NCBI GenBank assembly: GCA_002238965.1 | Contig: MPNJ01000002.1 | Span: 67,001-131,000 of the forward strand | Reading direction: 5' to 3' | DNA from: Nitrospinae bacterium bin107 | GTDB taxonomy: Bacteria; UBA8248 | DNA: 64,000 nucleotides | Shown here: piece by piece, positions 29,975 to 32,809 of the stretch | Numbering within the stretch: position 1 is the first letter of the stretch | Layout of the letters: every line of letters starts with the position of its first letter | Position numbers and translations under genes: made by a program | Notes under the pieces: model-generated | The model's input: the letters and a program-made list of their open reading frames with translations, nothing else | Database searches by the model: none | What the model was told of the DNA's origin: nothing

Positions 29975-30187
29975 TCATACTGCGAAAACTTCGTCCCTGA
30001 CAAGATGCAACCTGGCTACTTTGGGCACGTCTACTTCACCGAAATGGCAAAGCACCGCATCCCGGACCATTGACTTCAGTTCATCCCAGTCCTCTCCCTG
30101 GGTGAAAATTCCGTAGCCCAAGGCCCGGGCGTCATAGCCGCCTTCTACTGCTTCGGTAACCTCGAAAACGACTTCGCTCGGCGTCAT
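29975..30187 (-). CDS. Small HicB-like protein (orphan)
   Basis: From the ATG at 30187 the product is 70 residues (MTPSEVVFEVTEAVEGGYDA...). It belongs to the short family with EVTEAPEGGYxARALG and FTQGEDWDELKSMVRDAVLC patterns, often misnamed 2-oxoisovalerate dehydrogenase and having the HicB antitoxin fold. These are usually paired with a HicA-like double-stranded-RNA-binding toxin gene. None is visible on either side here. A TTG at 30232 could extend the frame by 15 residues, but no ribosome-binding site supports either start strongly. Confidence 0.65.
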   Translation of the reverse strand: MTPSEVVFEVTEAVEGGYDARALGYGIFTQGEDWDELKSMVRDAVLCHFGEVDVPKVARLHLVRDEVFAV

Positions 30188-30314
30188 GAGTACGCCCGAC
30201 TCGCTGATATCTGACTTCAGAAAATATAACAAGAATCCACAGAATGAACCGATCTGAATCAGTACAATTCAATGAAACCCGTATTCACAGGCAAGCCGCA
30301 TTCTCATTCAAAAA

Positions 30315-30362
30315 TGGTGGAGGCGGCGGGAATCCGAACCCGCGTCCGCAAGGCTTCCGTCG
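30315..30362 (-). repeat. Displaced copy of the tmRNA 3' end (putative att site)
   Basis: These 48 bases match the last 47 bases of ssrA (31245-31291) in the same orientation with a single inserted base, which changes the T-loop from GGTTCGATTCC to GGTTCGGATTCC. Similarity fades but continues for about 15 bases further. A truncated ssrA 3' end lying downstream of an intact ssrA is the usual footprint of site-specific integration into tmRNA. Only the gene at 30380-31195 lies between the copies. Confidence 0.75.
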
Positions 30363-30379
30363 CGTACGACTACGTGCGC

Positions 30380-31195
30380 CTATTCATCGAGTTGCGCGCT
30401 CTTCACGATGTATCCGCCGGACTTTTTGTCGAATTCCAGTTCCAACATCCCGCGGGCTTTCGCGTCTTCGAGCAGGTGTTTGAACGTTTTGTATCCGTGA
30501 TAGGATTCGCTGAATCCCGGCTTGCGGCGTTTCAGGGCCTGCTTCACCATCGATCCCCAGACCTTTTCTTCCTCGCCCCGCTCCCGGGACAAGTCCTCGG
30601 TCGTCTCCAGGACCAGATTGAGCCCTTCCAGCCGTTTTTCCTCTTCGCCGTCGACGACTTTCTTTCTTCCGGCGCGGGCGGCCGGCCGCTTCCGTTTGGC
30701 TTTTCCCTGTTTATCGGATTCGCGCATCAAGTCGTCGTAATAGATGAACTCGTCGCAGTTCGAGGTCAGCAAGTCGGAGGTCGAGTTCTTCACGCCGACG
30801 CCGACAACTACCTTGTTGTTCTCGCGCAGCTTGCTGACCAATGGCGAAAAATCGGAATCGCCGCTGATAATCACGAAAGTATCGACGTGCGACTTGGTAT
30901 AGCAGAGGTCCAATGCGTCGACGACCATGCGAATGTCGGCCGAGTTCTTGCCGGACATGCGGACGTGCGGTATTTCAATCAACTCGAAGGCCGCCTCGTG
31001 CATGGGAGCCTTGAATTCCTTGTAGCGCGCCCAGTTGCAATATGCTTTCTTGACGACAATGCTGCCCCTGAGCAATAAGCGCTCCAGCACTCTTTGAATA
31101 TCAAAATCCGAGTATTTGGCGTCGCGCACGCCAAGGGCGATGTTTTCGAAATCACAAAACAGAGCCATGTTCTGAATCGTGCTTTTTTCGGTCAT
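30380..31195 (-). CDS. NYN-domain putative ribonuclease with C-terminal LOTUS/OST-HTH domain
   Basis: I choose the ATG at 31195 (MTEKSTIQNMALFCDFENIA), giving 271 residues; the open frame extends upstream into ssrA, which is not coding. Residues 8-150 form an NYN (PIN-like) nuclease domain with acidic residues in FCDFENIAL, ADIRMVVDAL and ISGDSDFSPLV, as in LabA/MARF1-type proteins. A basic linker (KAKRKRPAARAGRKK) follows and residues about 210-265 (WGSMVKQALKRRKPGF..., GYKTFKHLLEDAKARGML) fit a LOTUS/OST-HTH RNA-binding domain. It lies between ssrA and a displaced ssrA end. Target RNA is unknown. Confidence 0.82.
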   Translation of the reverse strand: MTEKSTIQNMALFCDFENIALGVRDAKYSDFDIQRVLERLLLRGSIVVKKAYCNWARYKEFKAPMHEAAFELIEIPHVRMSGKNSADIRMVVDALDLCYTKSHVDTFVIISGDSDFSPLVSKLRENNKVVVGVGVKNSTSDLLTSNCDEFIYYDDLMRESDKQGKAKRKRPAARAGRKKVVDGEEEKRLEGLNLVLETTEDLSRERGEEEKVWGSMVKQALKRRKPGFSESYHGYKTFKHLLEDAKARGMLELEFDKKSGGYIVKSAQLDE

Positions 31196-31214
31196 TTGAA
31201 CTCCAGTTCGATCG

Positions 31215-31231
31215 GCGGCGCATGGCGCCGC
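31215..31231 (-). terminator. Hairpin just 3' of tmRNA
   Basis: GCGGCGC at 31215-31221 is exactly inverted as GCGCCGC at 31225-31231 with a three-base loop. It lies between the tmRNA 3' end and the NYN gene start. On the minus strand no U-run follows, so it may be a processing or pausing hairpin and not an intrinsic terminator; on the plus strand it is followed by AAGTATTTTATT. Confidence 0.35.
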
Positions 31232-31244
31232 AAGTATTTTATTC

Positions 31245-31605
31245 TGGTGGAGGCGGCGGGAATCGAACCCGCGTCCGCAAGGCTTCCGTCGTGAGCGTCT
31301 ACGCGCGTAGCCGGTGGAAAGGGTTTCGCCCGGTCTCAAGCCCACCGGCGGGCCATTCTCCGGGCTAGTCCGATTCGATTTCGCCTATCAGGCTCCGGAC
31401 CGAAACCTGGGTCGGCTAGTCCGCATCATGACGTTCCGCACCTCCCCCGCGGACGAGGCGAGGGGGAACGCTCGCTAGCGTTTAAGCAGCGAGAGCCAGC
31501 TCGTTGTCGGCTGGTGTGATTTTGCCACATTGATAACGGGGCCAAGTGGCGTCCCCGGCGCGCAGCTCAGACTTCAAATCCTCCCGTCGAAGCCAGATCG
31601 CCCCC
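31245..31605 (-). ncRNA. ssrA: Transfer-messenger RNA (one-piece tmRNA)
   Basis: Read on the minus strand, the RNA begins GGGGGCGATCTGGCTTCGAC at 31605, the standard tmRNA 5' end, and ends ...GGGTTCGATTCCCGCCGCC TCCACCA, giving the alanyl acceptor/T-arm tRNA-like domain with encoded CCA at 31245. The tag frame runs from GGC at 31526 to TAA at 31482 and encodes GKITPADNELALAA, with the usual hydrophobic LALAA end recognised by ClpXP-type proteases. Between tag and tRNA-like domain are GC-rich segments able to form pseudoknots. Length is 361 nt, and smpB lies upstream on the same strand. Confidence 0.95.
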
Positions 31606-31666: not shown

Positions 31667-31873
31667 CTATTTACGTCTCCTCCACATTTCGGGATAGAAG
31701 ACGTAGCTCAGATACGCGGCGGGGAGCAGGAATACCAGCCATATCCACAGCAGCCAGCCCTCGAAGGCTCCCGGCCAGGTGGCGCCAATGGCCAGGCCGA
31801 ACGCAGCCAACGAGATTTTCAGCAGACTCACCTGCCACCAGCGCATCGTGTAGTCCTTGAACATGTGCATCAT
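31667..31873 (-). CDS. Small membrane protein coupled to smpB
   Basis: The 68-residue protein is mostly two hydrophobic segments (VSLLKISLAAFGLAIGATW and GWLLWIWLVFLLPAAYLSYVF) with a basic C-terminus (MWRRRK), fitting a two-pass inner-membrane protein. Its ATG overlaps the smpB stop as ATGA, so translation is probably coupled. It ends 61 bases before the tmRNA 5' end. I do not recognise the family. The tight position between smpB and ssrA argues that it is a real gene. Confidence 0.6.
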   Translation of the reverse strand: MMHMFKDYTMRWWQVSLLKISLAAFGLAIGATWPGAFEGWLLWIWLVFLLPAAYLSYVFYPEMWRRRK

Positions 31874-32334
31874 CCCCGGTTCCTCTCCCTCAGCGCGCGC
31901 TCAATCTCTCGGTTCGCGTCGCGTTTTTTCAGCTCTTCCCGGCGGTCATGGAACTTTTTGCCCTTGCCGACGCCAATCTCCACCTTCGCGCGGCCCCGGG
32001 CGAAATACATCTTCATCGGCACGAGCGTCATGCCCCGTTCGTTCACGCGGCCGATGAGGCGGCCTATCTCGCGCTTGTGGAGCAGCAGCTTTCGCCTGCG
32101 CGTGGGCTCGTGGTTGTTAATGTTGCCGTGCCCGTAGGGGCTGATGTGGCAATCGACCAGCCATGCCTCGCCGTCGATGATGTCGCCGAAGCTCTCCTTT
32201 AAGTTCGCGCGGCCCTCGCGGAGCGCCTTCACCTCCGTACCCGTGAGCACGAGGCCCGCCTCATAAGTCTCATCGATCGCATAATCGGCGCGGGCGCGCC
32301 TGTTCTCGGCAACGATTTTTATGCCGCCCGCCAT
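31870..32334 (-). CDS. smpB: SsrA-binding protein SmpB
   Basis: The ATG at 32334 gives a 154-residue protein, MAGGIKIVAENRRARADY, of the usual SmpB length. Family blocks are YEAGLVLTGTEVKALREGRA near residue 24, VDCHISPYGHGNINNHEP near 60, RRRKLLLHKREI near 80 and the basic tail GKKFHDRREELKKRD that enters the ribosomal mRNA channel. SmpB delivers Ala-tmRNA to stalled ribosomes. It is directly followed by a small membrane-protein gene and ssrA, and rnr lies just upstream on the same strand, so the ribosome-rescue components are clustered. Confidence 0.96.
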   Translation of the reverse strand: MAGGIKIVAENRRARADYAIDETYEAGLVLTGTEVKALREGRANLKESFGDIIDGEAWLVDCHISPYGHGNINNHEPTRRRKLLLHKREIGRLIGRVNERGMTLVPMKMYFARGRAKVEIGVGKGKKFHDRREELKKRDANREIERALRERNRG

Positions 32335-32809
32335 CACAAACCTCAAGAATCTCAGGAAAAAGAAAAAGGAGCGCATCGCTCCCCAAGTTCCCTTGTCATC
32401 GAGAAACAATATAGCTCTTCGCGTGATTTTTCGCCACCGGGGAAAATTCATAGGGGAATCGTGAGTGAGACGAATCAGAAACCTTGCCGTTTGGGACCGT
32501 TGAAAATGTCCTGCCTACGTGATTCGGCAAATGGAACCAACCAGGGAGAGACGAGACTTCATTCCTTCAGAGTGTCAACCAACCACTCCCCCCTTGAGGG
32601 GATTGTTGAAAAAGCCCGCTTCGGATGCGGGTGGCGTGGGCGGGCGCGATGGTTTTGTAGGGACAACCCTCTGTGGTTGTCCTGCCCTCCGTGGTCGTCC
32701 TTTGTCAGGACAGGCACGGAGGCCTGTCCCTACAGCGAACAATTCGATGGATGATTGAGATTGCCTCCCTCTTAGAAGGGGACTTATTCAACAACGCCGT
32801 TTCGGAGGT
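32335..32809. other. Repeat-containing intergenic region between rnr and smpB
   Basis: This 475-bp gap between two minus-strand genes carries the 77-bp element at 32657-32733 and, at 32577-32600, a 24-bp match in inverted orientation to the right end of the MITE-like unit near 8.1 kb. The stretch 32335-32450 is open in the smpB frame but the SmpB family start is at 32334, so it is probably leader. No other gene is seen. Confidence 0.55.
32657..32733. repeat. 77-bp dispersed inverted-repeat element, copy 1
   Basis: The unit starts GTAGGGACAACC and ends GGCCTGTCCCTAC, with two internal stems (ACAACC...GGTTGT; GGACAGGC...GCCTGTCC). A copy of exactly the same length lies at 52666-52742 with several compensating differences, and a 28-bp palindrome at 8142 and a short relative at 754 share its ends. 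All copies are intergenic. Confidence 0.7.

Follow-up and report, generated by a model that had tools for sequence, protein, structure and literature searches.

A foreign NYN-LOTUS gene between two copies of the ssrA 3′ end in Nitrospinae bacterium bin107: a probable remnant of a tmRNA-targeted island

In the 64,000-nt stretch of Nitrospinae bacterium bin107 DNA that we have analysed (the window), a gene for an NYN-LOTUS protein lies between the 3′ end of ssrA, the tmRNA gene, and a displaced copy of that end. The underlying event is real: an old insertion at ssrA, probably site-specific, that delivered a gene whose sequence marks it as foreign. We consider it probable, with good confidence, that this is what is left of an ssrA-targeted island, one that had already contracted when the sampled lineages diverged and whose foreign NYN gene then displaced the native one. 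The initial annotation had proposed an ssrA island, or its remnant, with a putative RNase as sole cargo; the insertion, the displaced fragment and the single putative RNase as cargo have stood up, the idea of an element that is mobile today has not, and the displacement of the family's native NYN gene by the insert had been overlooked.

The insert and its gene

The ssrA gene (31245..31605, minus strand; tag ADNELALAA) is intact, as had been seen from the start: ARAGORN calls it and the Rfam model RF00023 matches it with 171 bits. Its last 63 nt (31245..31307, minus strand), which comprise the 3′ strand of the outer helix, the T arm, the acceptor strand and CCA, recur at 30315..30378 (minus strand) as a displaced ssrA 3′ end that forms the right border of the insert. 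This distal copy keeps 58 of the 63 letters and has one inserted base; the duplication had been noticed together with that base, but at a length of 47 nt instead of 63 (30315-30378). According to the Rfam alignment, the copied stretch takes in the 3′ strand of the outer helix, which we take to be P2, from about its first base onward and ends exactly at CCA. The repeat has a local score of 51, and 200 dinucleotide shuffles of the downstream 2.5 kb gave no more than 21; the corresponding scores in three further genomes of the genus are 61 (G001), 44 (G003) and 53 (G005), with shuffles reaching at most 22.

Read in the sense of ssrA, the order is ssrA end, a 49-nt leader (31196..31244, minus strand) with a GC-rich hairpin and a GGAG ahead of the ATG, an 816-bp gene including its stop codon (30380..31195, minus strand) and the second ssrA end; leader, gene and ssrA fragment make up a unit of about 929 bp. 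The stop codon (30380-30382) is 1 nt off the distal repeat. As in a tDNA island, the displaced 3′ fragment lies downstream of a regenerated ssrA and in the same orientation; the integrase of such an island is absent between the copies, where the NYN gene fills the interval and leaves no room for one. Both this absence and the solitary position of the NYN gene, the main sense-strand ORF there with no further gene of note beside it, agree with what was first reported. The GC-rich leader hairpin (31215-31231) is preserved, by eye, across the five carriers described below, and a terminator scan finds it terminator-like on the plus strand only, i.e. antisense to the gene.

Outside the insert, a small flanking ORF (29975..30232, minus strand), presumably HicB-like, has no Pfam match and has similar DNA in G001, G002 and G004. 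The upstream flank that served for genome comparison is an ORF at 31870..32451 (minus strand), which we take to be smpB, and it is conserved among the compared genomes. At 32656-32734 an inverted repeat of 29 nt (83%), whose end is of the TGTAGGGACA type, looks like a dispersed small repeat and resembles, by eye, repeats near ssrA in G004 and G005.

With the ATG at 31195 as its start, the NYN-LOTUS (LK-nuclease plus OST-HTH) gene encodes 271 aa; the mechanical ORF list begins it instead at a GTG within ssrA. Residues 10-153 match Pfam NYN (3.9e-36), and in an AlphaFold model of the protein (pLDDT 81.8) this part has the NYN fold of VPA0982 (2qip, Z 19.6) and of the MARF1 NYN domain (5yaa and 6fdl, Z 19.5 and 18.3), though at 19-29% identity. 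Asp15, Asp87 and Asp113 are invariant in 36 aligned members and align with MARF1 Asp358, Asp426 and Asp452 (numbering matched by hand), whereas Ile88 stands at the position of Asp427, the other one of the four active-site aspartates named in the accessible part of PMC6294520. On its sequence and its model, the protein is likely to be an RNase. The LOTUS-like tail that had been proposed is supported at the level of the protein family: at E<=1, PF12872 (OST-HTH/LOTUS) matches 22 of the 36 aligned members, with a best value of 1.9e-5, but not the copy in the window; for that copy alone the fold of the modelled tail suggests such a domain but weakly, since 2kpm is found by Foldseek at E 0.045 and aligns at Z 7.0, a middling value (rmsd 5.2 over 89 residues) that ranks under two ORC winged-helix rows (Z 8.9 and 8.8).

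The ssrA locus in the genus and the family

Our protein search covered 61 genomes: the window's own, six of the same genus, 11 further ones of the same family and 43 others. Every genus genome is a draft and those with named records are MAGs; G002 is JAJDYR01 (jk18x34bins.43) and G005 is VXPH01 (Nitrospinota SB0662_bin_51). An ssrA gene above the Rfam cut-off is present in 13 of the 18 family genomes; G016 has a partial gene, the contig of G009 stops at the ssrA end and no ssrA above the cut-off was found in G006.

The NYN gene stands behind ssrA in five genomes of the genus (G000, G001, G002, G003 and G005), and all of these except G002 have the ssrA repeat. No repeat was detected in G002, where homology to G000 ends directly after the NYN gene. 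The repeat is offset from the ssrA end by 866 nt in G000, G001 and G003, with unit lengths of 929-930 bp in the first two; it lies farther away in G005 because the NYN gene of that genome is longer and contains a run of N. A 33-nt ssrA pattern, allowed up to three mismatches, occurs twice in G001 only among the 18 family genomes, the other repeats of the genus having been missed because of indels or mismatches.

The initial annotation had suggested a search for strains without the insert. Behind ssrA in G012, G013, G014, G015 and G017, which belong to other genera, no NYN unit was found in the 328 to 4543 nt readable, and in blastn of G012, G013, G014 and G017 against the DNA downstream in the window only the ssrA copy itself is homologous. 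Within the genus an empty ancestral site was not seen. G004 has neither the NYN gene nor the repeat behind ssrA and has other DNA there: about 1.2 kb of AT-rich sequence (L135 3229-4465; 26-45% GC per 100-nt step) that begins exactly after the ssrA CCA and ends within the small flanking ORF; the shared flank follows. Its two ORFs (133 and 119 aa) have no Pfam or PHROG family match. As an ancestral empty site G004 was rejected, since it groups with G005 and G006 (96.8/94) and has other DNA at the site; its state is better read as a later loss of the insert. The root of the genus is poorly supported (42.4/46 in IQ-TREE, and placed elsewhere in FastTree). G002 pairs with G003 near ssrA but with G001 in an alignment of BatA plus its upstream DNA, the first of these trees having been disturbed because upstream sequence of G002 could not be aligned.

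The 3′ end of ssrA is an insertion hot spot in the family. In G013 the gene of a tyrosine integrase (379 aa; Pfam Phage_integrase, 9.6e-33) has its end some 10 nt from ssrA and is adjoined by a helix-turn-helix gene, the contig ending 1.5 kb behind ssrA; G015 has the same integrase at ssrA in two pieces, and G012 a remnant consisting of its last 93 residues. A larger ssrA island as the source of the insert was sought here in vain: the island of G013 runs off its contig, G012 holds the integrase remnant only, and an ssrA island with both an integrase and an NYN-LOTUS gene, which the initial annotation had suggested looking for, was not found in the relatives. Nor did G012 yield a displaced ssrA copy, either with the 33-nt pattern at up to three mismatches, which matched its ssrA alone, or by alignment over 80 kb of about 103 kb (outside ssrA the best score was 17, and shuffles reached 18). 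The best-scoring match to the G013 integrase within the genus has 37% identity only. In G011 a 75% relative of this integrase (L192 8006-9230) lies beside a tRNA-Gly gene and not beside ssrA, so that integrases of this class may have changed target within the family. We also note that many tyrosine recombinase genes of the genus stand in close tandem pairs (in G000, which has 29 matches in all, on contigs C4, C26, C31, C41, C44, C47 and C48), which remind us of recombinase-in-trio elements.

Origin of the gene and fate of the native homologue

By its sequence the window's NYN gene is foreign to the lineage and of proteobacterial type. A tree of 95 proteins unites the five NYN sequences of the genus in one clade (100/100), which joins those of loci L023 and L024 (fork 100/99) within a mostly pseudomonadotan group, while ten NYN proteins from other genera of the family, which share 50-55% identity with the window protein, make up a clade of their own (100/99). 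DNA homology to L023 extends over offsets 42-868, i.e. the gene plus three bases past its stop codon; the neighbours of the NYN gene in L023 and L024 are ordinary-looking chromosomal genes, by eye. The ssrA ends of the genus, on the other hand, differ from that of G013 at two of 63 letters (three in G000). Compared with the repeat of G001, the ssrA end of G013 keeps 60 letters and those of three carriers of NYN relatives 46, 51 and 51; a one-piece tmRNA above the cut-off was not found in the genomes of L023 and L024. The proximal ssrA end therefore looks, from these letters, native to the family and not derived from the donor group of the gene. With a family-like attachment sequence and a pseudomonadotan gene, it is probable that the gene was loaded onto an element already adapted to the family.

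Candidate carriers of such genes were sought more widely. A habit of NYN genes to travel as tRNA or tmRNA cargo was rejected: none of the 78 loci L023-L100, which belong to the best 80 of at least 590 in the contig scan, has a tmRNA gene, and a tRNA gene occurs in two of them, close to the NYN gene in L037 and far from it in L086. Of 100 loci submitted to a flanking-repeat test, one had no NYN match, and among the 99 tested, ssrA-type flanking repeats are confined to the genus. Scores of at least 40 were obtained by the genus loci L001, L002, L004, L005 and L022 (the last two being one contig) and by L035; L056 scored 30 and the other listed loci at most 16.5. In L035 (about 1526-2350, from a Mariprofundales MAG) the NYN gene lies between two copies of a direct repeat, some 155 bp long and with inverted ends, which does not resemble ssrA and is perhaps a small transposable repeat. 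Viruses and plasmids were likewise considered and gave no source among the records searched: no NYN relative was confirmed in viral contigs, seven phage records have relatives at 27-36% identity, and six plasmid records have relatives in the 60-80% band of 254.

Ten of the 11 family genomes outside the genus carry the family-type NYN gene. It lies directly behind a BatA gene in all nine relatives in which both were found, a count that leaves out G008 (no BatA match) and G009 (neither). All seven genus genomes have the BatA-like gene as well, and in the six that are readable (G000-G004 and G006; G005 is cut by a contig end behind BatA) the next gene, about 0.3 kb farther on, is a PEP-hydrolase-like one, named after the Pfam match of the copy in G011, where the corresponding gene follows NYN. 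In these six genomes no trace of NYN was detected by tblastn (E<=1) in the 1.5 kb behind BatA. Since G000-G003 have one NYN match each (E<=0.001), the imported gene is the only one in these four. It seems that the native NYN gene was lost from the genus and that the ssrA-borne copy took its place, a xenologous displacement. G004, at 79% completeness, shows neither the imported nor the native gene, which is a poor fit to a strictly needed function.

The imported gene is under strong purifying selection. For the six pairs of G000-G003, dN is 0.002-0.021, dS 0.11-0.27 and dN/dS 0.014-0.091; the comparison uses four of the five carriers because the gene of G005 is longer and has a run of N in the assembly. 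At the proximal ssrA end five of six genomes agree in every letter and G000 differs by one, and the distal copy keeps from 53 to 62 of the 63 letters. Since the gene is conserved while the distal repeat decays between species, and no integrase fits between the copies, the unit looks fixed and not mobile.

History of the insert, alternatives and meaning

A history that accommodates the observed repeat and its site, the foreign gene, the missing native gene and the selection would run as follows. In an ancestor of the sampled genus members, DNA with a proteobacterial-type NYN-LOTUS gene would have entered the ssrA 3′ end site-specifically, as tmRNA-targeted integrative islands do and presumably by an integrase; this would have restored an intact ssrA and left 63 nt of the former ssrA end beyond the insert. 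The element would then have contracted to about 929 bp prior to the lineage split, its integrase lost or never carried, and the unit would have become fixed, with the gene selected, the fragment decaying and the native NYN-LOTUS gene behind BatA lost, in an order of events that we infer. The near-constant unit length in G000, G001 and G003 shows that the unit had its present small size before these lineages diverged, and would fit the shrinkage of a larger island and the insertion of a small circle alike. We can only infer the contraction, because no larger island with an integrase and this NYN gene was found; it is preferred because the ssrA islands of Dehalococcoides and those accepted by Islander carry a recombinase.

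Could the 929-bp unit have arrived as it is, a small circle that a tyrosine integrase specific for ssrA inserted in trans and that was never part of a larger island here? The borders are very tight (49 nt before the ATG, 1 nt from stop codon to repeat), the 866-nt offset recurs in three genomes in which leader and gene fill the whole interval, and a candidate helper integrase occurs in the family. We nevertheless regard this as unlikely: selection for ssrA and NYN would equally leave tight borders, known islands bring an integrase and may lose genes later, and no second such unit was seen at another site or in another taxon, the 99 loci having ssrA-type repeats in the genus alone. We would put little weight on the further proposal that the unit is a complete mobile cassette with the layout of an integron cassette (short leader, ORF and, right after the stop codon, a recombination site, here the 3′ part of tmRNA), moved in trans by a G013-like integrase. 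It is very doubtful, too, that the ssrA end was copied by tandem duplication or illegitimate recombination and that the NYN gene arrived separately between the copies. Both ssrA copies do look family-native, and G002 carries the gene with no detectable repeat; yet two independent events at one point would be required, the repeat runs from about the first base of the outer-helix 3′ strand to CCA like the tDNAs split by integrases, the other DNA present in G004 again begins exactly after CCA, and a later deletion can account for G002.

A further proposal concerns the role of the insert and not its origin. Rae1/YacP is an NYN protein that cuts mRNA on stalled ribosomes, and one could imagine NYN-LOTUS and tmRNA as a defence or RNA-surveillance module of this kind, with the position itself functional. 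The gene lies in sense 49 nt behind ssrA, the scan shows no terminator-like site in the sense direction, and three of the four MARF1 active-site aspartate positions are kept. We find the proposal hard to credit all the same, given that the 78 loci L023-L100 (among the 80 top hits kept from at least 590) have no nearby tmRNA gene, that the family's native NYN gene sits behind BatA, that no defence context is seen, and that the founding survey, in its accessible part, reports no conserved RNA-processing neighbourhood (PMC2848206). The defence module of the initial annotation has gained no support so far: PADLOC gives two weak matches, one to a generic NYN model (28.9 bits) and, lower still, one to HEC-09 (16.4 bits), no relative was confirmed in viral contigs, and the neighbours in L023 and L024, the two closest relatives, look ordinary by eye.

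How does the remnant that we favour compare with systems already described? Cis-mobilizable elements are flanked by att sites and lack an integrase of their own, and the same is reportedly true of hitcher elements. The insert resembles them in its att-like flanking repeats and missing integrase, but differs in that no related helper was found in the genus and in that it appears fixed, with a decaying distal repeat. With the tmRNA- and tRNA-targeted islands, as far as they are covered in the available portions of PMC4383910 and PMC3146451, it shares an intact tDNA, a displaced 3′ fragment, foreign cargo and a common hot spot; it differs in being 0.93 kb long, with one gene and no integrase. The ssrA islands of Dehalococcoides are there said to have a serine recombinase and a 20-bp repeat (PMC3146451), and Islander to discard candidates that are below 2 kb or lack an integrase (PMC4383910, same portions), so that the insert would not be listed by it; we file it as a remnant or integrase-less unit and not as an active island. 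The bacterial architecture of LK-nuclease (NYN/DUF88) plus OST-HTH, with identical domain order, wide occurrence and lateral spread, and without conserved RNA-processing neighbourhoods, has already been described (PMC2848206, on the evidence of its accessible text); the window copy differs in riding on an ssrA insert that displaced a native copy. The portions available of PMC9897764, PMC2518516 and PMC10872708 contain no closer precedent, and no single-gene ssrA insert was met with in the titles and abstract openings of the literature surveyed.

The locus may represent an end stage of acquisition targeted to tmRNA, in which an island has been cut down to one gene and an att scar and the remaining gene has taken over from a native homologue. 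Since a search that demands an integrase and 2 kb, as Islander does, would miss such events, gene replacement at tDNA sites may be under-counted. For the genus itself, the locus marks NYN-LOTUS as a function that most of the sampled members have retained, albeit from a foreign source.
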